Source of the DNA: Oceanispirochaeta sp.
GTDB taxonomy: Bacteria; Spirochaetota; Spirochaetia; DSM-2461
DNA: 46,347 bases
Direction of reading: 5' to 3'
Assembly: GCF_027859075.1 (NCBI RefSeq)
Contig: NZ_JAQIBL010000077.1
Coordinates: 1-46,347 of the forward strand
The notes under the pieces: generated by a model
Seen by the model: only the letters and a program-made list of their open reading frames with translations
The model's database searches: none
Told to the model about the DNA's origin: nothing
Shown here: positions 392 through 36,363 of the stretch, piece by piece
Layout of the letters: every line of letters starts with the position of its first letter
Position numbering within the stretch: position 1 is the stretch's first letter
Program-made: the position numbers and the translations under genes

Positions 392-2515
392 TCAGTCCTG
401 AATCTGAAGAGCCAGGAAGGTTTGATCATCATGCTGCCTGGCATCTTTTGCAAAATCGGCAATGTAAAGCTCCACAGCCGTGATCAAATTCCCGGGGGAT
501 TTATCCAGATTTTCGGCTAAAAATCGGAGCAGCTGTTCCACAGACAATTCCTCACCGCTCAGACTCCTCGCTTCGGGGAGTCCATCAGTAAAGAGAAACA
601 GATAATCCTGATCATGCAGGCGGATCAATTTATGCCCGAATTCGGCATTTTTATCCACGCCAATGGGCAATCCCTCCGTATCAAAGCTCCTGAACTGTTT
701 CTCCTTTTTTCTAAATAGATAGAGTGGGTGATGAGCCGCATTGGAATAGGAGAGTTCCTTCTTCTTTTCATCGAGAACAAAAACAGCCATGGTGGCATAC
801 TGATCCACACCGATTCTTCCTGAAATATGGTAGTTCAATTCTTTTAAGAGTGTATTTGCTGAACGGTGTCTACTGCATATGGAATGAAGGATTGTCCGGA
901 TCATGATCATCAGCATGGAAGCCGGAACTCCTTTCCCTGCCACATCACAGACTGTATAGAGAATTTTGTCTTCATCCAGACGTATGGCATCAAAGTAATC
1001 TCCACTGATTCCCCGGGCCGGGCGGGAATGAATCATGGCTCTGCCTATACTGAATTCAGGCATCTGTGAAGGCAGGAGTCTCTTCTGTATGGCTGCAGCA
1101 ATGTCTATTTCTTTCTGAATTTCCCTGTTTTCAAGAAGAGTCTTATACTTGTTGACATTATCAATAGATTGAGCCGTATAATCGCTATAAGCTTTGATGA
1201 ATGTAAAGTCCAGATCAGAAAAGAATTTGTCTTTCTGTGTTTTGTAAAAGACTAGCATGCCCATCAACTGTTTTCCCACAATGAGTGGCAAGCTGATCAA
1301 GGATGAAATAAAGAGCCATTCATCACTCACAGCATTGTAGGGTAGTCCTTCAGAGTCTACATTGTCCTTGATAAACAGGGGAGTTCCCGTAGTCATTGTG
1401 ATTCCAAAAACAGGTGTCTCCGCGCTGAGTGGATGAGATTCAAAATACTCTTCCACATTACTCCGGACCATGGAGATTCTTTTATCAAGAGAAAAGGGGG
1501 GCGGACAGAAACCTGTTCTGCGGACAAGATTTAATTCACTCCTCTCACTGTCTACGAGGAACAGCATAGCTGCATCAGCATTGATGGAATCCATACCCAG
1601 TTCTACAATAGTCTCCTGAAAGGACTCAATATCCGTATCTGTACCGATGGCATTACCGATATCCTGAAGAAGAAACTTCAGTAAATTCAGCCGTTCAGAC
1701 AAACCTTGTGAAAAGGAATGATATTCCTGAACAAGGACATCAAATTCATCAACATTTTTATGATCCTTTGAAAACTCCAGTGTCCCTTCAGTCATCCTTT
1801 CTACCTGACGGTTTGTCTCTTCGACTCTTCTGACAATGCTTCTCGAAAATTGGGAAGAAATAATAAGTGAAATCAAAAGTATGAAAGTGACAGCAGAAAT
1901 GACGAGAGTAATGCTGTTCCTGATATATTGAGTAACCTCAACCTCCAGTTTTTCCGTTAATGACTCAATACGGAAGTGATAAATATCAAGAGAATGATTC
2001 AGAGAAATCTGAAAGTCTCTAATCAATTCAATCTGTTTCATGGCAGATTTATCATTTATTTTTGATTTGGAAAGATACAGGTCATATAAACCTGCATCAG
2101 TTCCATCAATAGCCAGATCAGATCCAGTAAATTTATTCAGTTCCAAAATGTAGGGATTGATTGTCAAGCTATAAATATCACTCCATTGGGTCCACCTGGA
2201 TTCCATCATCTTTTGAAATACTGGACTCAACCGCCTGATAAGTTTTGATTTAAAAACATTATCAATACCCTTATGGACAGCAATTAAATCGTTCATCCAG
2301 TAGTCAATCGCAATTTTGGGATATTTTTTGTCTGTATATAGGAGGAGATTTCTATCTGTAAAACGGGATAGGGATATATTGAGTTCTTCGCAGCTCTGCT
2401 GAAAGTTTTTGATTTTGTATACAGTCGTAAATCTTGAAAAAAGAAAGATAGAAGACAGTAAAAATCCTATGATAAGGATAAAACTTGTCAATCCGAGTCT
2501 CGTCTGGATTTTCAT
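392..2515 (-). CDS. Membrane sensor with HAMP, GAF and SpoIIE/RsbU-type phosphatase domain
   Basis: A 707-residue signalling protein. A first membrane helix (about 10-27) and a second (about 201-221) enclose an extracytoplasmic sensor. They are followed by HAMP (about 222-275), GAF (about 280-455), a helical linker (IAAAIQKRLLP, about 472-482) and a PP2C-type SpoIIE domain (485-707). The metal-binding acidic residues look intact: GDYFD (D506), CDVAGKG (D524), FTDG (D644) and DD (696-697). Family members dephosphorylate Ser/Thr on STAS-domain anti-anti-sigma factors, so a partner-switching role is likely; the substrate is not known. Its ATG overlaps the stop of the upstream paralogue by 4 bases, so the two are translationally coupled in one minus-strand operon. 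Confidence 0.88.
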   Translation of the reverse strand: MKIQTRLGLTSFILIIGFLLSSIFLFSRFTTVYKIKNFQQSCEELNISLSRFTDRNLLLYTDKKYPKIAIDYWMNDLIAVHKGIDNVFKSKLIRRLSPVFQKMMESRWTQWSDIYSLTINPYILELNKFTGSDLAIDGTDAGLYDLYLSKSKINDKSAMKQIELIRDFQISLNHSLDIYHFRIESLTEKLEVEVTQYIRNSITLVISAVTFILLISLIISSQFSRSIVRRVEETNRQVERMTEGTLEFSKDHKNVDEFDVLVQEYHSFSQGLSERLNLLKFLLQDIGNAIGTDTDIESFQETIVELGMDSINADAAMLFLVDSERSELNLVRRTGFCPPPFSLDKRISMVRSNVEEYFESHPLSAETPVFGITMTTGTPLFIKDNVDSEGLPYNAVSDEWLFISSLISLPLIVGKQLMGMLVFYKTQKDKFFSDLDFTFIKAYSDYTAQSIDNVNKYKTLLENREIQKEIDIAAAIQKRLLPSQMPEFSIGRAMIHSRPARGISGDYFDAIRLDEDKILYTVCDVAGKGVPASMLMIMIRTILHSICSRHRSANTLLKELNYHISGRIGVDQYATMAVFVLDEKKKELSYSNAAHHPLYLFRKKEKQFRSFDTEGLPIGVDKNAEFGHKLIRLHDQDYLFLFTDGLPEARSLSGEELSVEQLLRFLAENLDKSPGNLITAVELYIADFAKDARQHDDQTFLALQIQD

Positions 2516-4569
2516 TTGGCAGCTCCCTTATACCTGGCGATGAACAGGGTGCGGTCATCCCTTTGACCGACATTTCGTTCAAAGAAACTAAGGTCCTTAT
2601 TAATGGCATCCTGCAGCCAGTCTACAGAGCGGTCAGAATATTTTTTTAGAATATTCTGGGGATGATTCCATCCATAAAGCTGATTCATTTCATTCCTTGT
2701 ATTGTGGAACCCATCGGTCATGAGCAAAAGAAACATATCTTGCCTGAGTGATCCTTTAACAGATATGAATTTGCCGGCACTCTTCTGTTGTGCTGTGATC
2801 AGTTTCAGTGTGTCAGATTTTTTATCGAAAAGGATCATTTTCTGTCCTGAGGTTCCACAGTAGTGAAATAACTTATTATTAGGTTCCACTAGACAGAGGC
2901 TAATCTTCAATTTGGTATCCATCCCTGTTGTTTCATGAAAATTATCAAGAATAGTATTCAGCATTTCAGCCGGTTCCTGATCTGCCTTGACCAGGATACG
3001 AACCAAGGTTCTTAAAATGACCAGAAGCATGGATGAAGCAATCCCTTTTTCTTCAACTTCCGCCAGGCAGAAGAGCCATCTCTCCTTACCAAGAGGGAAA
3101 AAGTCATAGATTTCCCCACTGATTCCCTTCTGTGTATAAGTCTTAACTGTCAAATCAAAACCATTGACCCGGGGCAGATTGGGAGGCAGAAGGCTCTTCT
3201 GGATATCTGAAGCAATTTCCATTTCACGGTTCAATCCCGAAGATTTGAGCAGCTCCGTATATTGCGCCAGGTTATTCAAAGTTACAGCACTGAATTCGAC
3301 AAAGGATTGAATGTTACTGTAATCCATATCAGAAAAGTGTGTTTTTTCAGTGTTTTTTTGGAGACACAGGAGAGCAATAACGTTTTTTTCAGAAATGAGT
3401 GGGAGAATAAGACAGGAGGATATGTAGTCTCGATCAAATATGCCTCTTACAGGGATCAGATTCTGCCCCTCCAGACTGCGTAGAAACAGGGGTTCTCCCG
3501 AAAGTACAAATATTCCGATGATCGTTTTTCCAAAGGGAATCGATTCATTGTACTCCTCCTCATAAGGAATGGCAAAGGAACTGCTTTTCAATCTGCAAAT
3601 GACCTGCCGCCTCTCATAATCAGGAATATAGAGAGCCCCCGAATCAGCATGTGTATTTTCAATGGCCAAATCCAGGATTGACTGCTCAAGGGTCAGAGCA
3701 TCGGCTTCGGAGGAAAGGGATTGTCCCATATTGTGAATAATACTTCCAATATTATTTAACTTCTGCCAAATTGTTTCGGTCAAGAGATTAAAGTTTTGCC
3801 CGATAGTAGCCAATTCATCCTTTGATTCAATATGGATTCTGGTGAGCAGGTCTCCTGATGATATTTTTAGAATACCCATACTGACATGATTTAGTGTATT
3901 GATCAGGTTTCTATAAATACTGACAATAATAATGATGGAAAGAAGCAGTCCAAGAAAAACAGTAATTCCGGTGAGGAGAATGATAGATTTAATTTGTCCC
4001 TGAACTTCTGTGATGATATCTAGGGTGATTGATACAAAAGAGTCTGTAAGCGGTCTATGCCAGAGTATAAATGTTCTTATCTCTTCCTCAATTTTGACCA
4101 TTGAGGCATAAAGAAGTTTATCCTGGTTTCCCTGCTCCAACATATCCTGAACTTCCAGCACAAGGGTCGTCTCATACAAATGAGGACGGACTTTTGAAAG
4201 CTCATCTGAAATATTCTGAAAGTAGGACTCAAAATTTCGTTCCTTATACATATCCCGAATCTTAATGATTCGATTGATTGTTTCTTGATTTAAATACTGC
4301 AGGTTTTCATTTGCTGAAAAATCGTCCAAGCCTTTCTGAACATCTTTACCGGCCCATCCCAGGGTGTGAGTGGGGGCCTCAGTGGAATTCAATACAACCC
4401 TATTGGCATACTCCAGATTCAGAAGAAGGTTCCTTACAGAACTGGCTTCCCTTTGCAGGTCTTTTAAATCCAGGAGTCTAAAGGAGGTTATGATAAAAAT
4501 CGAAAAAATAAGAATAAAGAGTAGAAAGACCGAGACATTGATTAAAAATAGTTTATTTCGAATTCTCAT
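2512..4569 (-). CDS. Membrane sensor with HAMP, GAF and divergent SpoIIE-like phosphatase domain
   Basis: A 685-residue paralogue of the next gene in the operon, with the same order: membrane helix (about 8-28), extracytoplasmic helical sensor, second helix (about 195-217), HAMP (about 218-270), GAF (about 280-440), linker with IASDIQKSLLP (452-462) and a PP2C-like domain (465-685). The domain is clearly SpoIIE-like, but two metal-ligand motifs are changed: the usual GD reads GE (E486), and the usual GDVxGKG reads AEVEEKG (E504). The late motifs MTDG (D619) and DD (671-672) remain. It may have altered metal use, low activity, or a binding and regulatory role. It is the first gene of the pair. 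No strong ribosome binding site is seen before the ATG at 4569. Confidence 0.83.
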   Translation of the reverse strand: MRIRNKLFLINVSVFLLFILIFSIFIITSFRLLDLKDLQREASSVRNLLLNLEYANRVVLNSTEAPTHTLGWAGKDVQKGLDDFSANENLQYLNQETINRIIKIRDMYKERNFESYFQNISDELSKVRPHLYETTLVLEVQDMLEQGNQDKLLYASMVKIEEEIRTFILWHRPLTDSFVSITLDIITEVQGQIKSIILLTGITVFLGLLLSIIIIVSIYRNLINTLNHVSMGILKISSGDLLTRIHIESKDELATIGQNFNLLTETIWQKLNNIGSIIHNMGQSLSSEADALTLEQSILDLAIENTHADSGALYIPDYERRQVICRLKSSSFAIPYEEEYNESIPFGKTIIGIFVLSGEPLFLRSLEGQNLIPVRGIFDRDYISSCLILPLISEKNVIALLCLQKNTEKTHFSDMDYSNIQSFVEFSAVTLNNLAQYTELLKSSGLNREMEIASDIQKSLLPPNLPRVNGFDLTVKTYTQKGISGEIYDFFPLGKERWLFCLAEVEEKGIASSMLLVILRTLVRILVKADQEPAEMLNTILDNFHETTGMDTKLKISLCLVEPNNKLFHYCGTSGQKMILFDKKSDTLKLITAQQKSAGKFISVKGSLRQDMFLLLMTDGFHNTRNEMNQLYGWNHPQNILKKYSDRSVDWLQDAINKDLSFFERNVGQRDDRTLFIARYKGAAK

Positions 4570-6650: not shown

Positions 6651-9600
6651 ATGACTGTGAACAATCGGATTAAAAAAACTACGATACTCTTATGGATGGC
6701 AATGTTTCTTACATTTTCCATTGCGGCGGATTCCTCGGGAGAATTGGCATACCCCCTCTATTCACCTCTGTTTCTAGGAAGCGGAGCCTCGGTCACCAGA
6801 ATGGATTCGCCTCAGGCGGCCAGTATAAATCCTGCGGCATCCGCTAATGTTCAAAGGGTAATTCTGGATTTAAACTACATTAATTTGTCCGGATGGGAAG
6901 AATCAGGCATGGGTCATGCCGTCAACACAGCCTTGGCCTATCCTTCAAAATATGGAGTATTTACAGGCGCTCTTCATTTCCTGACAACTGAGGCTCTGAA
7001 TGCACCCTCAATGGATTTCGGGACATTTGGTTCTGTGAATGCCGCTTTTTCAAAAGAAATCTACAAAGACTTTTACACTGGATTCAGTCTTAGTTCTGCC
7101 CTGGGAACAGACATGGACTGGGGTGCGGGTTTAAATATAGGATTTATTCATAAACCGGGAACCATCGGTAAAATGAAAAACTTCCGATGGGCCGGATCAT
7201 TCAATCAGATTGGTAAAGGATACGGCAGTGTAAAAAGTGGAACATACCTGAATGCTGTTCCTAATAATTTGACCCTCCAATTGGGAGCTGGTTTTGATAT
7301 CATCGATAAAAAAGATTTTACCTGGGCTATCAATGGTGACATTGCCCTGCCTACTTTTTCTGATGTAAAAGTGGAACTGGGACAGACTATTACAATCCAG
7401 AAAAATTTGAGTATTGCCACATCTTCTTCCGTGATACTCTCAGATTCGATTGAGGGGAACTACCAGACCCTCATACCCTCAATAGGCATCAGTTATAACT
7501 ACTCATTCAAGCCGAAGGGAGAAGAAAAGACTCGGAAGCAAACCAGTGAGATTGAATTTCAAGCCTCCGGAGCACCACTGTACAATGGAGTTGTCGCCAT
7601 TGGAGCTGGTGCCACCATACCTTTTGGTGTGAGAGATACCAATCCGCCGGAGATAAGCTATGATTATAAAGATCCGATTTATATATCACCCAATTTAAAT
7701 GGTGTTCAGGATGAACTGGATTTCCCCTACAGCGTGAAGGATGAGCGCTATATCATGGGCTATACATTCTCTGTTTATAATGAGGATGGAACTCTGGTTA
7801 AAGAATTCAAAAATAAGGACGAACGTCCTGAAAATGAGAGTTTTAAAAATATTTTTGACAGGTTGTTTGCTGCTAAAAATGGAACAGGACTCCCCGAGAC
7901 TTTCCGTTGGGATGGTGTCATGGAGAGTGGAGAAATTGCTCCCGATGGAACTTACAGCGTTCAAATGTCTTTCAGGGATGATAATGACAACCAATCAGAA
8001 TCAGAAAAAATGACCGTTGTATTAGATACGGTTCCTCCTGTAATCAGCCTGGAAAAACCCCAGGGTACGGGACTGATATTCTCTCCCGACGGTGATGGGA
8101 ATAAAGAAAAACTGTTCATCAAACAGAATGGATCCTCTGAAAATCTCTGGACAGCTGCTATCAGGAACCTCGATGGAAGTGTCGTTAAAAGCATAAAGAT
8201 TGAAAGCAACTCACCCGAATCTTTTTATTGGGATGGAACGGATGACCAGGGAATCATTGTTCCTGATGGTGTTTACAGCTATGAAATTGAGTCTACCGAC
8301 CCTTCAGGAAATCATGTATCAGAAAAACTTGAGAATATTCTTGTCAACACAGAACAGCCCCCTGTCAATCTGACCATCGACAACGCCTGGCTCAGTCCTG
8401 GAAATACTGATGGAATTGACACAATCAATTTCGGTCCTGTCATTCCTGTGACTTCCGGCATCATAGAGTGGGAACTCCAGGTGCAGGACATGCAGGGTAA
8501 AAGCTTCTGGAGCTACAACAATAGAAGATTAGGCATCCTGGAAGTACCAAAAATTATTAATTATACGGGAGATGCCGGGGTAAACGGCCGACTGGCAGAA
8601 GGAAGATACAGAGGATATCTAACCATTCAGTACCAGAATGGTTATACTCCAGAGGCCTATTCTCCCGGATTTACTGTGGATACAAGTGCGCCGATCGGCC
8701 GGGTCAGCGGAGATCAGATACTCTCTCCTGATGGAGACGGATTTAAAGACACCCTGACTCTTTCACTGGATACATCTGAAGAGGATTATTGGGAAGGTTT
8801 TATACGTAGCAGTAAGAATGAAACCGTAAAATCCTATTTCTGGAGAGGAAAAGCAGACCCTCAGATAGTCTGGGACGGCAGAGATCAGGAAGGACGGTCT
8901 GTTCCTGATGGGAAATACAACTTTTATCTCGAAGCCTTTGATAAGGCCGGGAACAGAGGGATTTCTCCTGCTCATAGTTTCTCACTGGATACAAGAGAGA
9001 TGTCTGCGAAGATTTCAGTCAGTGAAGATGCTTTTTCTCCTGATAATAATGGAGTCAAGGATGAAGTCACATTCTTTACTGTCATTGATAATCCGGAAAC
9101 TGTAGAATCATGGACATTGAAGGTCCTTTCGGAACGAGACAAGTCCACAGTAAAAACCTGGAAAGGATCTGGAAAAGCAGCCCTGACATATACCTGGAAG
9201 GGAGAAGGGGACAGTGGAGGAAAAGTCGTAGATGGGACCTATAAGGCAGAGTTGACACTGGTCTATCAAAAGGGTGACCGTCCTGTTGTCCAAACGACAC
9301 TATTTGAAAAAGACACTGTGCCACCCGTTCTGAATGTTCAGTCAGATAAGACCCTCTTTTCTCCTGATAATGATGGATTGGGGGATTCTATTCTGATCAG
9401 GCAGAGTTCTTCTCAAGAAGCTGAAATTACAGCCCGGATGATGGATGATGCAGGGAATACAATAAGATCCTGGTTCTGGAAAAACAGGCCGGAGGATCTG
9501 AACTGGGACGGCAAGGATGAAAACGGCAATATTGTTCCCGATGGGCTCTATCAGTATAAGTTGAGCTCCTCTGATGCCGCCGGGAACAGCAGTGAAATCA

Positions 9601-10673
9601 GTTTGAATAATATTGAAATTGTTACGGCGGGCACAGCTGTTTACCTGACCGCTAAAAGTTCCTTATTTTCTCCTCTGTCAGAACAATTCAGCTCTCAGGA
9701 TTTTACGGTCTATGTAACCAACAAGAAGGGGATTGAGAAATGGACTCTGAAAATAAAGGATTCTGAAAACACTGTCGTTAAGACTATCAGTGGTAGGGCT
9801 GTGACTCCCCCTCTGTTGACCTGGGATGGGCGCAGTGATAGCGGAAGTCTTCTTGAAGGAAGCTTCACAGCTGAGCTTCAGCTTGTTTACAGTAAAGGAA
9901 ACAAGCCAGTGGCTCTCAGCCGTGAGTTTTTACTGGACAATAGTGCTCCCCTGGTAGGCATTGAACTTTCACCTGTCCCATTTTCACCGGATGATGATAA
10001 TGTGGATGACGAGCTGAAGATTGGATTGAGTGTTCGGGACCTGTCTCCCATAAGGGACTGGGAGATGACGATACGGGACCCTAAGGGAAAAGAATTCATA
10101 ACATTCGGCGGCAGGGGACGTCCCTCTGAAAGAATCATCTGGGATGGACGATCCCGTCAGGGGGAGCTGGTTCAGTCGGCAGAAGATTATCCCTATGAAA
10201 TCAGGGTTACAGATTTCCTGGGTCATTCCACAGCAGAAAAAGGGTTAATTCCCGTAGATATTCTGGTGATCCGTGAGGGAAATCAACTGAAAGTCAGAAT
10301 TTCCAACATCACCTTTCAACCCTATAAAGCGGCTCTTGTTTCAGAAGGAGATCATGGTAATAAGAATAGGGAAGTACTGAAACGCCTGTCGGAAGTCCTT
10401 AAAAAATACGGATCCTATGGTATTGTTATTGAAGGTCACGCTGTGAGTGAGTATTATAACAACCCTGTCCGGGCTGCCAGAGAAGAAAAAGAAGAACTCC
10501 AGCCCCTTTCACTGTCACGCGCAGTCACTGTGAAAGAATACCTGAATACACAGGGCATACAGGAATCAAGAATGAATGTCATCGGTAAGGGAGGGACTGA
10601 ACCTGTCGTACCCCACAGTGACTTGGAGAACAGATGGAAAAACAGGAGAGTCGAATTCATCCTGATAAAATGA
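6651..10673 (+). CDS. Giant cell-envelope protein: UPF0164/FadL-like N-terminus, eight FlgD-type Ig repeats, C-terminal OmpA domain
   Basis: About 1340 residues. A Sec signal (RIKK followed by a hydrophobic stretch ending SIAA) leads into about 300 residues resembling the spirochaetal UPF0164/FadL-like group (AYPLYSPLFLGSGA, then PQAASINPAA), which suggests an outer-membrane barrel. Next come eight Ig-like FlgD/CHU_C-type repeats, each opening with an SP[DNG] calcium-site-like motif and closing with W-D-G and P-D-G-x-Y. The C-terminus is OmpA-like, with the helix LSLSRAVTVKEYL and final NRRVEF, and should bind peptidoglycan. The start is uncertain: ATG 6651 directly follows AGGAG, while GTG 6657 lies 6 bases after it and may be the true start; the frame is open up to TTG 6612. 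A role in tying the outer membrane to the wall is inferred. Confidence 0.82.
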   Translation: MTVNNRIKKTTILLWMAMFLTFSIAADSSGELAYPLYSPLFLGSGASVTRMDSPQAASINPAASANVQRVILDLNYINLSGWEESGMGHAVNTALAYPSKYGVFTGALHFLTTEALNAPSMDFGTFGSVNAAFSKEIYKDFYTGFSLSSALGTDMDWGAGLNIGFIHKPGTIGKMKNFRWAGSFNQIGKGYGSVKSGTYLNAVPNNLTLQLGAGFDIIDKKDFTWAINGDIALPTFSDVKVELGQTITIQKNLSIATSSSVILSDSIEGNYQTLIPSIGISYNYSFKPKGEEKTRKQTSEIEFQASGAPLYNGVVAIGAGATIPFGVRDTNPPEISYDYKDPIYISPNLNGVQDELDFPYSVKDERYIMGYTFSVYNEDGTLVKEFKNKDERPENESFKNIFDRLFAAKNGTGLPETFRWDGVMESGEIAPDGTYSVQMSFRDDNDNQSESEKMTVVLDTVPPVISLEKPQGTGLIFSPDGDGNKEKLFIKQNGSSENLWTAAIRNLDGSVVKSIKIESNSPESFYWDGTDDQGIIVPDGVYSYEIESTDPSGNHVSEKLENILVNTEQPPVNLTIDNAWLSPGNTDGIDTINFGPVIPVTSGIIEWELQVQDMQGKSFWSYNNRRLGILEVPKIINYTGDAGVNGRLAEGRYRGYLTIQYQNGYTPEAYSPGFTVDTSAPIGRVSGDQILSPDGDGFKDTLTLSLDTSEEDYWEGFIRSSKNETVKSYFWRGKADPQIVWDGRDQEGRSVPDGKYNFYLEAFDKAGNRGISPAHSFSLDTREMSAKISVSEDAFSPDNNGVKDEVTFFTVIDNPETVESWTLKVLSERDKSTVKTWKGSGKAALTYTWKGEGDSGGKVVDGTYKAELTLVYQKGDRPVVQTTLFEKDTVPPVLNVQSDKTLFSPDNDGLGDSILIRQSSSQEAEITARMMDDAGNTIRSWFWKNRPEDLNWDGKDENGNIVPDGLYQYKLSSSDAAGNSSEISLNNIEIVTAGTAVYLTAKSSLFSPLSEQFSSQDFTVYVTNKKGIEKWTLKIKDSENTVVKTISGRAVTPPLLTWDGRSDSGSLLEGSFTAELQLVYSKGNKPVALSREFLLDNSAPLVGIELSPVPFSPDDDNVDDELKIGLSVRDLSPIRDWEMTIRDPKGKEFITFGGRGRPSERIIWDGRSRQGELVQSAEDYPYEIRVTDFLGHSTAEKGLIPVDILVIREGNQLKVRISNITFQPYKAALVSEGDHGNKNREVLKRLSEVLKKYGSYGIVIEGHAVSEYYNNPVRAAREEKEELQPLSLSRAVTVKEYLNTQGIQESRMNVIGKGGTEPVVPHSDLENRWKNRRVEFILIK
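7686..10260 (+). repeat. Eight tandem Ig-like (FlgD_ig/CHU_C type) coding repeats arranged as a two-domain super-repeat
   Basis: The Ser codons of the repeat-opening motif are at 7686, 8082, 8394, 8724, 9036, 9360, 9669 and 9984. Repeats 2, 4 and 6 share one subtype (ending with D-x-x-G-N), and repeats 3, 5 and 7 another (E-x-W-x-L near the start and a Y-x-x-G-x-x-P segment near the end). The distance between same-type copies is 642, 636, 642 and 633 bases, so the unit of duplication is a domain pair of about 212 residues. Confidence 0.8.
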
Positions 10674-12887: not shown

Positions 12888-13016
12888 ATGTTTTGGAGAA
12901 GAATTATTACATCTGTTATGTTCGCTCTGGGGATCGCCCTCATTTTACGCAGTCTTCTTAATATAATACCGATATTAAGAAACAGAAAAAAAAATGAGGA
13001 TACAGAGGATGAATGA
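12888..13016 (+). CDS. Small single-span membrane protein (42 residues)
   Basis: This short frame encodes a basic start (MFWRR), a hydrophobic span of about 20 residues (IITSVMFALGIALILRSLL), a basic stretch (RNRKK) and an acidic tail (NEDTEDE). This is the composition of a real single-pass membrane peptide rather than a random frame. The stop codon falls just inside the next gene, giving an 8-base overlap with its preferred start at 13009, as is usual for coupled genes in this window. There is no ribosome binding site before ATG 12888. No family was recognised. It may act with the unknown protein encoded next. Confidence 0.5.
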   Translation: MFWRRIITSVMFALGIALILRSLLNIIPILRNRKKNEDTEDE

Positions 13017-14775
13017 AGATTCTGTAAACGAGGAAACCTCAAAGCTTCCTTCGGTGTTCCAGATGGATTTGCAGAAAAGAGAAGAATTTCTCTCTCAGGT
13101 CGGTAGTTTCACCCAGGAGCAACGAAGGATCTTTCACAGGATCTGCGATTTTTATGATCCTGTTCTTGATTACAATCGATTTGTTCTTCATGCAGGAAAA
13201 GACATTCTTTTTGCAAACAACCAGATCGAAATAATGATGAGGAAAATCAAGAATGCCCACTATGGTCTGCTAAAGTTCCGCTTGATTGATGGAGAACTCA
13301 AAGCAGATAAAATTATCGTGACCAACAGAGATTCCCGAGAATTTTACATCAACCTGATTGAAGACGAAATTCAAAGAAATCTAATGGATGATTCACGGTC
13401 ATTTCTGAAACTCCCGGACCTGGAAGAACAAAACCAGAGAGTACCCTTTGATTTTGTGGATACAATGCATCCTGAATCACTAAGCCCATCTTTTATCAAA
13501 CTCAATAAGAATGAAGCCCGAATTTATACCATGCCTCTCAAGACGGGAGCCCCCTTGCTGGCAACATCAGGATCTTTGGGAGACTTGATTGAGCTCAGTC
13601 AGATCCGCATCAAATCTTATCTGAACAATACTTCCTTCATATCGATTATCTCCCGATATATGAATATAAAAATCAGTGATATTCAGAGGCAGCTGAGTGG
13701 CAAGGATCGATCCTTTTGGCTCAATCTGGCGACTAATATATTTCAAAATAAAGAGGACCTTCAATTACGCCTCAAGCACCTGGAAGACACTCTGTTTCAA
13801 GGGAGTGAAATTATTTTTCACTATTATACAAATTGTTTAAAGGAAGAAAAGCAGGAAAGAGAGGACAATGCTGCCAAGTATGCGGCCCTGGATGAAGTGT
13901 GCATGGAGATTCTTCAAAAAGAAAACTTTCTTATCACAGATGAAGATCTGATCAAGATATTGGAACCCTATGCAAAAAAATGGGAGGGATTTAAAGAGTA
14001 TTTTTTTGAATCGGCAGTCAAGATGAATAATAAAATCGGCCTTCCTCTCATATTGAATATGGATGCACATTATATTCACAGGGACCATGTTTATCCTTTT
14101 TTCCGCTCTGAACTCTCCATTCAATCCAAGGAATTGAAGTTATATTATATTCAGCTTATGGAAAGGATGCTCCGAACCGGGAACAAAGATAGAATAACCG
14201 TTTTTTATACAAGAGAGACATTCAAAGAAGACGTCATGGATATGATCAGAAAAGAGGCCCCGATTCTTGCTGAATTTCTGATCAAACCAAAAATTGTATC
14301 CGAAGGGATTGTTCATTACTTCAAGAATCTAAAAAAAGTCCGGGATGTAAATAAAATCAAGGATTTCATGAATAATTTTTTTGATCAGGGCATCATCCGT
14401 TTTAAAGATACAGATTTTCTACTCAATCTTTACCTTCTTGAAATTTTTGATGAAGCCTATAAATTTCTTTCCTGGTGGAAAAAAATGGTTCTTCGTCTTT
14501 CCGGCAGGAAAGATAGTTTTATTAATCAATTTTCCGGACTTTCAAGTAAAGAAGATTTGCCTCCTCTCAATATGATGAACCCAAAGAAGTCAATTTCTAA
14601 AAGATCACTCGATTCCTACCAAAGGATAGGCAAAACCCGCAAAAATGATAAATCAAAAAACGATGGACAGACCAGACGAAAAAACCAGGACCTCTCCCAG
14701 AAAATGTATAGTGTAAAACAAAGGGAAAAGGCCTGGCTTGAGTTTGAAGATGCTTTTCATAGGAAGAATCAATAA
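13009..14775 (+). CDS. Large cytoplasmic protein of unknown function with a basic C-terminal tail
   Basis: I do not recognise this protein. It has 588 residues from ATG 13009, which has GAGGA at 12996-13000 8 bases upstream; ATG 12994 is an alternative giving 593 residues. There is no signal peptide or membrane helix. The N-terminal 200 residues look mixed alpha/beta, the middle is mostly helical, and about 70 residues before the C-terminus are very rich in Lys, Arg, Ser and Asn and likely disordered. A short aromatic and charged segment (REKAWLEFEDAFHRK) closes the chain. It sits between a small membrane peptide and the chemotaxis block, and could be an adaptor at the membrane, but this is only a guess from position. 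Confidence 0.8.
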   Translation: MNEDSVNEETSKLPSVFQMDLQKREEFLSQVGSFTQEQRRIFHRICDFYDPVLDYNRFVLHAGKDILFANNQIEIMMRKIKNAHYGLLKFRLIDGELKADKIIVTNRDSREFYINLIEDEIQRNLMDDSRSFLKLPDLEEQNQRVPFDFVDTMHPESLSPSFIKLNKNEARIYTMPLKTGAPLLATSGSLGDLIELSQIRIKSYLNNTSFISIISRYMNIKISDIQRQLSGKDRSFWLNLATNIFQNKEDLQLRLKHLEDTLFQGSEIIFHYYTNCLKEEKQEREDNAAKYAALDEVCMEILQKENFLITDEDLIKILEPYAKKWEGFKEYFFESAVKMNNKIGLPLILNMDAHYIHRDHVYPFFRSELSIQSKELKLYYIQLMERMLRTGNKDRITVFYTRETFKEDVMDMIRKEAPILAEFLIKPKIVSEGIVHYFKNLKKVRDVNKIKDFMNNFFDQGIIRFKDTDFLLNLYLLEIFDEAYKFLSWWKKMVLRLSGRKDSFINQFSGLSSKEDLPPLNMMNPKKSISKRSLDSYQRIGKTRKNDKSKNDGQTRRKNQDLSQKMYSVKQREKAWLEFEDAFHRKNQ

Positions 14776-33417: not shown

Positions 33418-36363
33418 TTGAAGAAGTTAGCCCTGATCCTACTCTTATTCCTTCTCATTTCGATGGACATTATCGCCCAATCAGGGTCGCAACTGTTTCA
33501 GGAGGGCAGAGATGCCTTTTCAGAGAAGCTTTTTTCCAGATCTATAGAAAGCTTCCAGGATTTTATTAATCAGTATCCCTCGGATCCAAGGGTGGATCAG
33601 GCTGATTATATGATAGGGGTCTCCCTGTTCTACCTGAGGAAATTTGATCGGGTTATCAGCCATTTTGAACGGTATGAACGCAATTATCCCAGCTCTGCCT
33701 ATATCAGACGAATCCATTACTGGAAAGGTCTCTGCTATTATGGCCAGGATAATTTCAGATCGGCAATTATCGAACTGAAAAAACAATCTGAAATAACCGA
33801 AGAGTTATACTTCAGACAAAAAAGTCTGCAGCTTCTGGGCTATTCCTATGAAAAAACAGAACAATATGAGCTAGCCGGTCTATCCTATAGTCAACTTTTC
33901 GAATCAAATCCAGGGAGAGATCTTTCGGCTCTATCCCTGGAACGTCAAGGTTATATTCAGCTGAAACTTCAGAATTATAGAGCTGCTCTGGACTTTTTCG
34001 AAAGGGTCACTGTTGACTATAGTGGGATACCTCAAGTCATGAAAGAAATTCCCTTCTATCAGGCAGAATGCTATTATCAGCTGAAAGACTATGATGCCAG
34101 TCTAAAAAAATATGAAACATTTCTGACCCTTTACAGCTCTTCAGAAAACAGAGAAAAAGCTGTATTCAGATTGGGTTCTCTCTATTCAATGATGAATAAA
34201 CAGGATGATGCAAAAGAGTACATGAATCTTCTGGCAACCGAATTCCCCAAGAGCAAGTACATTATGGAAGCACATATTATTCTGGCAGAGAGCTATATGG
34301 CCGATGGAAATATGACTGCCGCCAGAACCTCCCTTACCAAGCTCCTGGAAAATGAAAAGAATCCTATGGAGATTCAGAAACTTCAGTTCAACATGGCTCG
34401 AACCTGGGAGGAGAAGCCTGAGGAAGCTCTAAAATGGTACATGAATGCCTCAAAGGGACTGGATCCCGATATATCAGGAGAAAGCCTCTACAGAAGCGGT
34501 ATCATCTATGAAAACAAGGATGAGTCTGCCAGAACGGTTCTACTCTTTGAAAAACTCTTCAATCAATTCAGGAGCAATGAGCACAGAGAAGAAGTCGGGG
34601 ATTGGATTGTTCTATATTATGAAAAAAATGCTCAGGATCTGGCACTCAAAAATCATCTTGACAGGATGCTTACAGAATACCCGGATACTGGAAAAAAGAT
34701 ACTCTATCTCTATATGCGTGGAAACATATCTTACAAGGAAGGCAAACATAACGAAGCCCTCCGTTATTATCAGAATATCCTGAATGTCGAAACCGATGAC
34801 AGGCTTGTGTTAAATGAGACACGCTACAGGATTGGATATATTTATACGCTCAGAAAAGAGTTTTACAGGGCCTCCGAATACTTCAGTGAAGTACTGAAAA
34901 CACAACCGAAAGATGAACTTTATTACCGATCACTCCTGTCGCTTGGTATCTGTTTTCTCAACAGTAAAGATATTGACCGGGCGGAAAAAGAATTCACGGA
35001 ACTAGCTGAAACCAAAAAGCCAACCCTCTGGACAGGAGACGCCAATTTCTATTTAGGAAAGATTCAGATGGACAAGGGTTCTTATAAGGATGCTATTGGT
35101 TATTTTAAAACAGCAGTTGCCACCTCGGCAAACTCTGAAAGAAAAATTCAGACTCTATATCAGCTGGGTTGGTGCTATATGAGAATGATATCGTTTCAGG
35201 AAGCTTCTGATGCCTTTGATGCATTGTGGAACCTGGATCAGAATCATCCCCTATCAGGAGATAGTTTGTACCGTTCTGGAACGGCTCTCAGTTATCTGGA
35301 ATTATGGGACGAGTCACTTATCCGTTTTAAAAAAGCTCTGGAACTTGTGGAGTATTTCAGCTTGAGAGAAGAGCTCCTCTACCAGACAGCCTGGTCATAC
35401 TTTATGCTTATGAATTTTGATTCGGCAATGGATTACCTCAAACAACTTGAAATTGAATTCCCTGATAGTCCTCTTCCGGCGGATGGTCTTTTCAGAGCCG
35501 CAGAGACATTATATGAAAAGGGTGAAAAGACGGCGGCTGTGACTGCTTATATTGCACTATACAACGAATTTGTTACCAGTCCACTTTCAGAAACAGCCCT
35601 ATACCGAGCACTCACACTGACTGAAAACCGTGAAGAAAAACTTGATCTCATCAAAATTTTCTTAAACCAGTATTCCGGAAATGACAGATCTCTCCAATCG
35701 GTTCTGCAGCTGGAGGATATGCTGAATAGGGGGATGATAAAACCAAATCAGCAGCAGATTCAAAATATACTTGATCTGAAATTAACCAATAGGGAAAGAA
35801 CAATCATTCAATTGGGCCTTCTTTATACACAGTTAGAGATGGAAGAAAGCCTGCAAACCCTGAATGATTTATCCGGGTTATTAGACATCAGTCCCAGAGA
35901 ACAGGAACAGATAAAGCTTTATAAGGGAATAGCACAATATCATGCCGGTAATATTCTCCAGGCGGGAACACTCTTTTCAGAAGTTCTGAAAGGTGATACC
36001 TCCAAGTTCAGTGCAGAAGCTCAGTTCTATAAGGCCAAAATACTGCAGGATCAGGGCGAATGGAAAAAGGCAGCCGATGCCTATTTGAGTATCCGTTATC
36101 GCTATCCCGACCAGGAAGACTGGGTCCTCAAGTCCCTCTTCCAGGCAGCTCTCTCCTACAACAATGCCGGTGATACCGAGAGTTATCAACGAACAGCCCA
36201 GATGCTCTCTGAAACATCCGGAGGTTCTGACCTTATGGATCGCCTTATAGAAGAGATGGATAGCCCTGAGACTTCAACAACTGGAACTGAAGTGCCTGAA
36301 GAAAGGACAGACCTTGAAAGCCTGTCCCCCTCTGCAGAGATACTTCCGATTCTTGATGAATAG
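33418..36363 (+). CDS. Exported tetratricopeptide-repeat protein
   Basis: A 981-residue protein beginning at TTG, supported by TGGAG 7 bases upstream. A Sec signal (KKLALILLLFLLISMDIIAQ) is followed by a solenoid of about 25 TPR-like helical pairs with typical A-x-x-x-F-x-x-x-x-x-x-x-Y-P spacing; the first resemble BamD/CpoB units (SRSIESFQDFINQYPSDP). The last 50 residues are acidic and Ser/Thr-rich. It probably scaffolds envelope proteins in the periplasm. Probably cotranscribed with clpC. It ends 3 bases before the convergent kinase gene. The exact function is unknown. Confidence 0.86.
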   Translation: MKKLALILLLFLLISMDIIAQSGSQLFQEGRDAFSEKLFSRSIESFQDFINQYPSDPRVDQADYMIGVSLFYLRKFDRVISHFERYERNYPSSAYIRRIHYWKGLCYYGQDNFRSAIIELKKQSEITEELYFRQKSLQLLGYSYEKTEQYELAGLSYSQLFESNPGRDLSALSLERQGYIQLKLQNYRAALDFFERVTVDYSGIPQVMKEIPFYQAECYYQLKDYDASLKKYETFLTLYSSSENREKAVFRLGSLYSMMNKQDDAKEYMNLLATEFPKSKYIMEAHIILAESYMADGNMTAARTSLTKLLENEKNPMEIQKLQFNMARTWEEKPEEALKWYMNASKGLDPDISGESLYRSGIIYENKDESARTVLLFEKLFNQFRSNEHREEVGDWIVLYYEKNAQDLALKNHLDRMLTEYPDTGKKILYLYMRGNISYKEGKHNEALRYYQNILNVETDDRLVLNETRYRIGYIYTLRKEFYRASEYFSEVLKTQPKDELYYRSLLSLGICFLNSKDIDRAEKEFTELAETKKPTLWTGDANFYLGKIQMDKGSYKDAIGYFKTAVATSANSERKIQTLYQLGWCYMRMISFQEASDAFDALWNLDQNHPLSGDSLYRSGTALSYLELWDESLIRFKKALELVEYFSLREELLYQTAWSYFMLMNFDSAMDYLKQLEIEFPDSPLPADGLFRAAETLYEKGEKTAAVTAYIALYNEFVTSPLSETALYRALTLTENREEKLDLIKIFLNQYSGNDRSLQSVLQLEDMLNRGMIKPNQQQIQNILDLKLTNRERTIIQLGLLYTQLEMEESLQTLNDLSGLLDISPREQEQIKLYKGIAQYHAGNILQAGTLFSEVLKGDTSKFSAEAQFYKAKILQDQGEWKKAADAYLSIRYRYPDQEDWVLKSLFQAALSYNNAGDTESYQRTAQMLSETSGGSDLMDRLIEEMDSPETSTTGTEVPEERTDLESLSPSAEILPILDE

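Follow-up and report, generated by a model that had tools for sequence, protein, structure and literature searches.

A candidate outer membrane-to-wall tether in Oceanispirochaeta: a predicted FadL-fold barrel, eight immunoglobulin-like domains and an OmpA-like end in one chain

The stretch of DNA analysed here (the window; 46,347 nucleotides of Oceanispirochaeta sp., contig NZ_JAQIBL010000077.1, forward strand) carries on its plus strand a complete gene for a 1340-aa protein that combines a predicted outer-membrane barrel, a chain of immunoglobulin-like (Ig) domains and an OmpA-like domain. A sequence-only reading of this gene had proposed a UPF0164/FadL-like N-terminus, eight FlgD-type Ig domains and an OmpA-like end, in a chain that could span from the outer membrane to the wall as a tether suited to a periplasm holding flagella. 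The features of the gene, based on alignment, profiles and an AlphaFold2 (AF2) model compared with known structures by VIA-align, are as follows.

6651..10673, plus strand: complete coding sequence, 1340 aa and stop; ATG start, open frame from 6612 (TTG)
6651..6725, plus strand: signal peptide, type I-like, without cysteine; judged by eye, cleavage site approximate
6735..6842, plus strand: predicted N-terminal hatch, helices with a FadL-type NPA motif (alignment, AF2 model, VIA-align)
6858..7625, plus strand: predicted FadL-fold barrel, 14 beta strands (AF2 model, VIA-align)
7650..7661, plus strand: short strand EISY ahead of Ig1, read as strand A of Ig1 (model strand 311-314; tails of 13/13 split barrels)
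7680..8039, plus strand: Ig1, which contains an insert and the near-invariant stretch NKDERPENESFKN (alignment, home-built profiles)
8073..8375, plus strand: Ig2, A type (home-built profiles, as for the following six domains)
8373..8717, plus strand: Ig3, B type
8718..9020, plus strand: Ig4, A type
9018..9347, plus strand: Ig5, B type
9351..9620, plus strand: Ig6, A type
9618..9905, plus strand: Ig7, B type
9903..10262, plus strand: Ig8
10263..10670, plus strand: OmpA-like domain (Pfam PF00691, PDB matches)
10434..10523, plus strand: peptide-pocket stretch GHAV to LSLSRA, with Val1265 for the canonical Asp and Arg1290 kept (sequence comparison)

Pfam recognises FlgD_ig (PF13860; 143.3 bits, cut-off 27) in six stretches of the 1340-aa protein, and the profiles built in this analysis, by which all Ig domains were delimited, confirm the eight domains originally proposed. 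The OmpA-like end was likewise recovered (PF00691, residues 1237-1332; 42.6 bits, cut-off 27.2, E 8e-11), while a Pfam scan gave no match for residues 1-333. An AF2 model of residues 440-1340 (mean predicted local distance difference test, pLDDT, 83) is a succession of beta-rich domains closed by one of alpha/beta type, and Foldseek searches with this Ig-OmpA model returned mostly complement and macroglobulin chains, i.e. generic Ig arrays only. Relatives were collected as 163 distinct units reaching an Ig8, a non-random sample for which long and short frames were deliberately fetched; barrel, Ig chain and OmpA end share one frame in 129 of the 163, and the layout is therefore not due to chance. 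No published protein of this architecture is named in titles or abstract starts among the matches listed from the open-access literature, which is no proof of absence.

The barrel was modelled from residues 24-580 of the window protein aligned with 29 loci (AF2, pLDDT 85), giving helices at model positions 6-41 followed by 14 strands (47-302). The best VIA-align row is FadL (Z 30.1, 258 residues, 2.8 Å), with TodX/TbuX/CymD among the further top rows, along with chains from type IX secretion system entries, read as PorV (Z 28.0 and 27.5), and from Bacteroidota beta-barrel assembly machinery (BAM) entries, read as BamG (Z 25.0 to 23.5), both identities being taken from entry titles and papers; the next barrel in the ranking, OmpG, has Z 18.5. 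The Foldseek E-value list for the same model mixes barrels with Ig proteins because the model includes both kinds of domain, and the assignment was settled by the VIA-align list. In an 18-row alignment of relatives, the N and the P of the NPA motif in the hatch never vary. Structure prediction, the check that had been suggested for this region, thus returned a 14-strand barrel, and the N-terminal domain is a predicted FadL-fold barrel with a hatch. The FadL half of the earlier assignment stands, whereas membership of UPF0164 (PF03687) was rejected by sequence, with a Pfam match in 0/23 relatives at E 0.1 and an hhalign probability of 30 against the UPF0164 protein encoded elsewhere in the same genome. 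The barrel profile found no match among PDB sequences at E up to 1, and no Pfam family scored above its cut-off; one relative has a sub-threshold match to PorV (E 0.03).

The nearest folds, FadL and the aromatic-compound channels TodX, TbuX and CymD, and the invariant N and P of the hatch motif in 18 relatives would suit a protein whose main role is hydrophobic nutrient uptake through a FadL-type channel, its Ig-OmpA tail merely holding the channel on the wall. This appears unlikely, given that the same fold is found in the chains read as PorV and BamG and that the Ig number is conserved across 23 families, beyond the needs of a simple leash. BamG is described as belonging to a BAM complex, of which it is one subunit, and for PorV the role of a substrate-binding shuttle has been proposed (PMC12578637, PMC12611786). 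Similarity to these two (Z 28.0 to 23.5) could also point to a barrel-assembly or secretion scaffold, the Ig chain being a docking arm whose conserved NKDERPENESFKN stretch in Ig1, beside the barrel, could dock partners. We give such a scaffold a small chance only: BamG is reportedly essential in Bacteroidota, yet 201 of the 390 Spirochaetota genomes surveyed (completeness at least 85%) have no match to this barrel profile, and, as weak evidence, no BAM or secretion gene was recognised by eye among the neighbours in 37 loci (largest clusters only).

The inner Ig domains alternate between two types (116 chains), with mean mutual identities of 36-40% for Ig2, Ig4 and Ig6 and 32-33% for Ig3, Ig5 and Ig7. 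The NKDERPENESFKN stretch, directly after the barrel, is near-invariant and among the best-conserved parts of the protein; to our knowledge it resembles no known motif, and it could be a docking site. Across the 163 units, 8 Ig domains were found in 120, 4 in 35, 12 in 6, and 16 and 5 in 1 each. Seven of these counts (L027, L099, L130, L132, L159, L185, L187) were fixed by hand where a domain carrying an insert had been hit twice or a stray short hit occurred, and the tally excludes chains with no Ig8 match, cut by a contig end or broken (e.g. L029, L030, L033, L083, L088, L090, L093). The window's class (the class to which its genome belongs) contributes 85 units from 23 families, with 8 Ig domains in 77 cases, 12 in 5, 4 in 2 and 16 in 1. 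The 76 uncut 8-Ig chains of this class have a median length from Ig1 to the end of 1006 aa (interquartile range 995-1012, range 977-1047), and identity to the window protein over residues 440-1340 drops as low as 36%; retention of strut length despite this divergence suggests that length matters.

A quick tree built from the Ig1, Ig8 and OmpA segments requires at least 10 changes of Ig count, and on it the 4-, 12- and 16-domain chains of the window's class and of its named relatives fall into seven separate groups, several placements being weakly supported. In one 12-Ig chain (L079) a block of four domains has plainly been copied in tandem, its middle domains being 58-67% identical when four apart, compared with an average of 33% when two apart; no such copy is visible in the other five 12-Ig chains or in the 16-Ig chain. 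A strict multiple-of-four rule at first fitted 162 of the 163 units and was then broken by some of 20 further regions chosen for odd lengths or as paralogues. Besides the exceptions weighed below, the 20 include regions with 4 Ig domains (L266-L269, L271, L272, and L273 after joining one split hit), with 8 (L263, L264, L265) and with one (L259), two without OmpA (L275 with eight and L276 with three) and one that is cut (L262). Four-domain steps are a habit of the barrel-linked chains in the window's class (85/85) and no family-wide law, and a four-domain superhelical turn as their cause is a guess. Some genomes carry two members of unequal length (a 4-Ig and an 8-Ig member in each of G059, G073, G115 and G090, the 4-Ig one of G090 having no barrel; 12 and 8 in G340), so different lengths can coexist in one cell. 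An 8-Ig chain is also present in genome G204, at about 2.053-2.057 Mb. Outside the window, its genome also encodes an 834-aa frame without a barrel, a relative in which 6 Ig domains are followed by OmpA (G000:C261:1862-4363; L258), and a 446-aa frame with one recognisable Ig domain and OmpA (G000:C170:1494-2831; L259).

In about 75 genomes (our own count) the barrel lies in a short frame of 343-448 aa. In all 13 of these that were examined, the barrel gene is followed by an adjoining gene on the same strand encoding Ig1 to Ig8 and OmpA. This second gene specifies a separate signal peptide, in which inspection by eye showed no lipobox, and Ig1 (YISPN) starts at once or within ~30 residues. The C-terminal tails of the split barrels contain D...P.I/L in 13/13, followed by LW or MW in 11, and the matching residues of the fused chain, EISY (model 311-314), form a strand ahead of Ig1. 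As the tail stays on the split barrel and EISY is a strand in the fused model, the barrel tail probably donates a strand to Ig1 in the split species. In such genera, where the chain is cut into two adjoining genes, the strut would be rebuilt without a peptide bond, the barrel tail completing Ig1.

Residues 848-1338 are the best stretch for the NCBIfam model of Lsa66 (NF053608; 322 bits), a protein of Leptospira interrogans (LIC10258) that also has Ig domains followed by OmpA and is related to the window protein over ~490 residues. Lsa66 is reported to be at the surface by immunofluorescence and to bind laminin and fibronectin (PMC3130794), and this reported behaviour, with the match of the C-terminal part, would favour a surface adhesin with its Ig domains outside the cell. 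Several features of the window protein make that very improbable. Its score is below the family cut-off of 700 bits, which is reached by none of 197 genomes of the phylum; the 15 Lsa66-like relatives, unlike the window protein, have 4 Ig domains in a frame without a barrel; and the terminal OmpA domain points to the wall. A FadL-fold barrel, moreover, places its C-terminus in the periplasm. In the loci of Lsa66-like genes from other classes the barrel profile has no match, and no barrel-like gene was recognised by eye beside the 15 Lsa66-like genes, where a diverged barrel could escape notice.

Canonical OmpA domains grip the wall via TD(x)7NxxLSxxRA, whose Asp binds diaminopimelate (DAP) by its head group, and in most spirochaetes, Leptospira being an exception, ornithine is reported to replace DAP (PMC5104382). 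The window protein departs from this motif, reading GHAV with the Arg kept. In its class all 85 units have N, V, A or H in place of the pocket Asp, which is also absent from 33 of 38 units of named metagenome-assembled genomes; in other classes, TD or SD is found in 19 of 24 barrel-fused units. MurE is the enzyme that adds the residue concerned, DAP or ornithine, and its motif reads EDPR, not of DAP type, in all 10 genomes examined from the window's class. Among 18 genomes outside it, 13 have DNPR, the DAP-type MurE motif; family f50 has DDLY and DNPL, family f37 one EDPR, and two are unreadable. The f37 and f50 chains likewise lack the Asp. Among genomes in which both pocket and MurE were read, eight with DNPR (G063, G073, G090, G095, G103, G107, G115, G137) contribute 10 barrel-fused chains to the unit set, every one of them with Asp, and Asp is missing in 10/10 of the non-DNPR genomes carrying a chain. 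Tp0624 of T. pallidum has an OmpA-like domain without the DAP-binding Asp in which the Arg is kept (PMC5104382), and its putative relatives read GHTA in 4/4, not GHA[NV]. We read the pocket change as a putative adaptation of two envelope anchors, the chain and the Tp0624 relatives, to an ornithine wall.

The predicted fold, domain order, constant length, gene fission and pocket change are computed features of this family. They lead us to propose, with reasonable confidence, that the protein tethers the outer membrane to the peptidoglycan and acts as a spacer between them. A chain from outer membrane to wall, as first suggested from the sequence, is probable, backed by the model, the conserved order and length, the split-gene neighbours and a pocket that tracks wall chemistry. 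The FadL-fold barrel would lie in the outer membrane, both of its ends, the C-terminal one included, facing the periplasm. The eight Ig domains, at ~4 nm each, would form a strut some 30 nm long that crosses the periplasm to the C-terminal OmpA domain, and this domain would grip the wall's stem peptide. The altered pocket of the window's class probably suits a diaminopimelate-free wall, as the linked difference in MurE suggests.

A number of observations weigh against this proposal. Tp0624, with a similar loss of Asp, is reported not to bind DAP (PMC5104382), and the pocket change could instead mean that wall binding was lost. MotB-like proteins retain GHTD in 5/5 genomes of the window's class; the wall therefore does not force the loss of Asp, and the simple rule that Asp follows wall chemistry is broken by these proteins. 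Two genomes with a DNPR MurE (G105 and G153) have TG and TN in the chain, and in other classes Asp is present in only 1 of 15 barrel-less 4-Ig units (14/15 without). The window's genome encodes six OmpA-domain proteins altogether. Chain length also varies outside four-domain steps: three paralogues that lack the barrel (in G000, the window's own genome, G032 and G047) have 6 Ig domains each, and in other classes there are 6 in L270, 7 in L274 and 5 in L277. The 201/390 genomes without a barrel match include G106 and family f20, so that the job appears to be dispensable there or done otherwise.

A bolder extension of the tether proposal has a real but minority chance of being correct. In it, the chain would be a ruler that fixes how far the outer membrane lies from the wall. 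Its main, barrel-linked form would be lengthened or shortened in steps of four Ig domains (4, 8, 12, 16), as if four domains formed a superhelical turn whose phase has to be kept; its wall grip would have been re-tooled for the change from DAP to ornithine, and in one branch it would be reassembled from two proteins, the barrel tail donating a strand to Ig1.

The barrel profile (A4) matches 189 of the 390 genomes, of which 144 belong to the window's class and the remaining 45 do not, and FliF is present in 333. Barrel and FliF occur together in 184 genomes, the barrel only in 5, FliF only in 149 and neither in 52. Among the five FliF-less barrel genomes, FlhA was found in three (G112, G322, G092) and not in G366 or G374. 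The latter carries 16 Ig domains (L074); the former has 12 or more, its chain (L088) being truncated by a contig end. Neither has a match to FliF or FlhA, so flagella are seemingly not required, and the idea that they are the chain's reason for being is weakened. A spacer would matter most where cargo, most obviously flagella, must fit under the outer membrane. The protein could then be part of the periplasmic flagella, making or guarding the room in which they turn, a role to which co-occurrence (FliF in 184/189 barrel-positive genomes, FlhA in 3 more) and family f9, with neither a barrel-positive genome nor a FliF match, both lend support. We nevertheless doubt it, in view of G366 and G374 and of the 149 FliF-positive genomes without the profile; the co-occurrence is dominated by few families, and the counts ignore shared ancestry, which explains much of it. 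The flagella link is weak, and what backs the suggestion of a tether for a flagella-holding periplasm is co-occurrence.

No universal neighbour gene was found in 37 loci. A methyltransferase lies upstream in 13 and an RlmL-like gene downstream in 8, and our own inspection of downstream genes identified mltG in 7, dnaG in 10 and rpoD in 7, with L038 and L039 among the loci where these genes follow the chain. Relatives of a 593-aa protein without a Pfam match, encoded in the window at 12994-14775 (plus strand), are the second downstream gene in 8 of the 37 loci. Elsewhere in the window, two adjoining SpoIIE-type phosphatases with GAF domains, one with HAMP, are encoded at 392-4569 (minus strand), and a 981-aa protein with many TPR repeats at 33418-36363 (plus strand). 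A candidate relative from Holophagae (L063) was rejected as an orthologue.

Like the window protein, OmpA of Gram-negative bacteria is tether-like, with an outer-membrane barrel and a C-terminal OmpA-like domain; its barrel, however, has 8 strands rather than the 14 of the FadL fold predicted here, and the window protein differs further in its eight intervening Ig domains and missing pocket Asp. FadL/TodX, PorV and BamG have in common with it the 14-strand barrel, N-terminal hatch (Z 23 to 30) and NPA motif, but there is no sequence-family match above cut-off, and the window protein has the C-terminal Ig-OmpA extension in addition. The UPF0164 proteins of T. pallidum (TP0548, TP0856, TP0858, TP0859, TP0865) are likewise spirochaete FadL-like barrels, although of another sequence family. 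Tp0624, similar in its pocket, has other partner domains, with neither barrel nor Ig chain.

The two OmpA-like proteins of T. pallidum are described as barrel-less (PMC8407342), and the authors of the Tp0624 study suggested that treponemes may harbour divergent strategies for linking outer membrane and wall (PMC5104382). Related Ig-OmpA proteins that have been read as adhesins, such as Lsa66, merit a second look. A barrel-to-wall chain of fixed length would be a direct candidate for what fastens the outer membrane of spirochaetes to a distant wall, with flagella in between.

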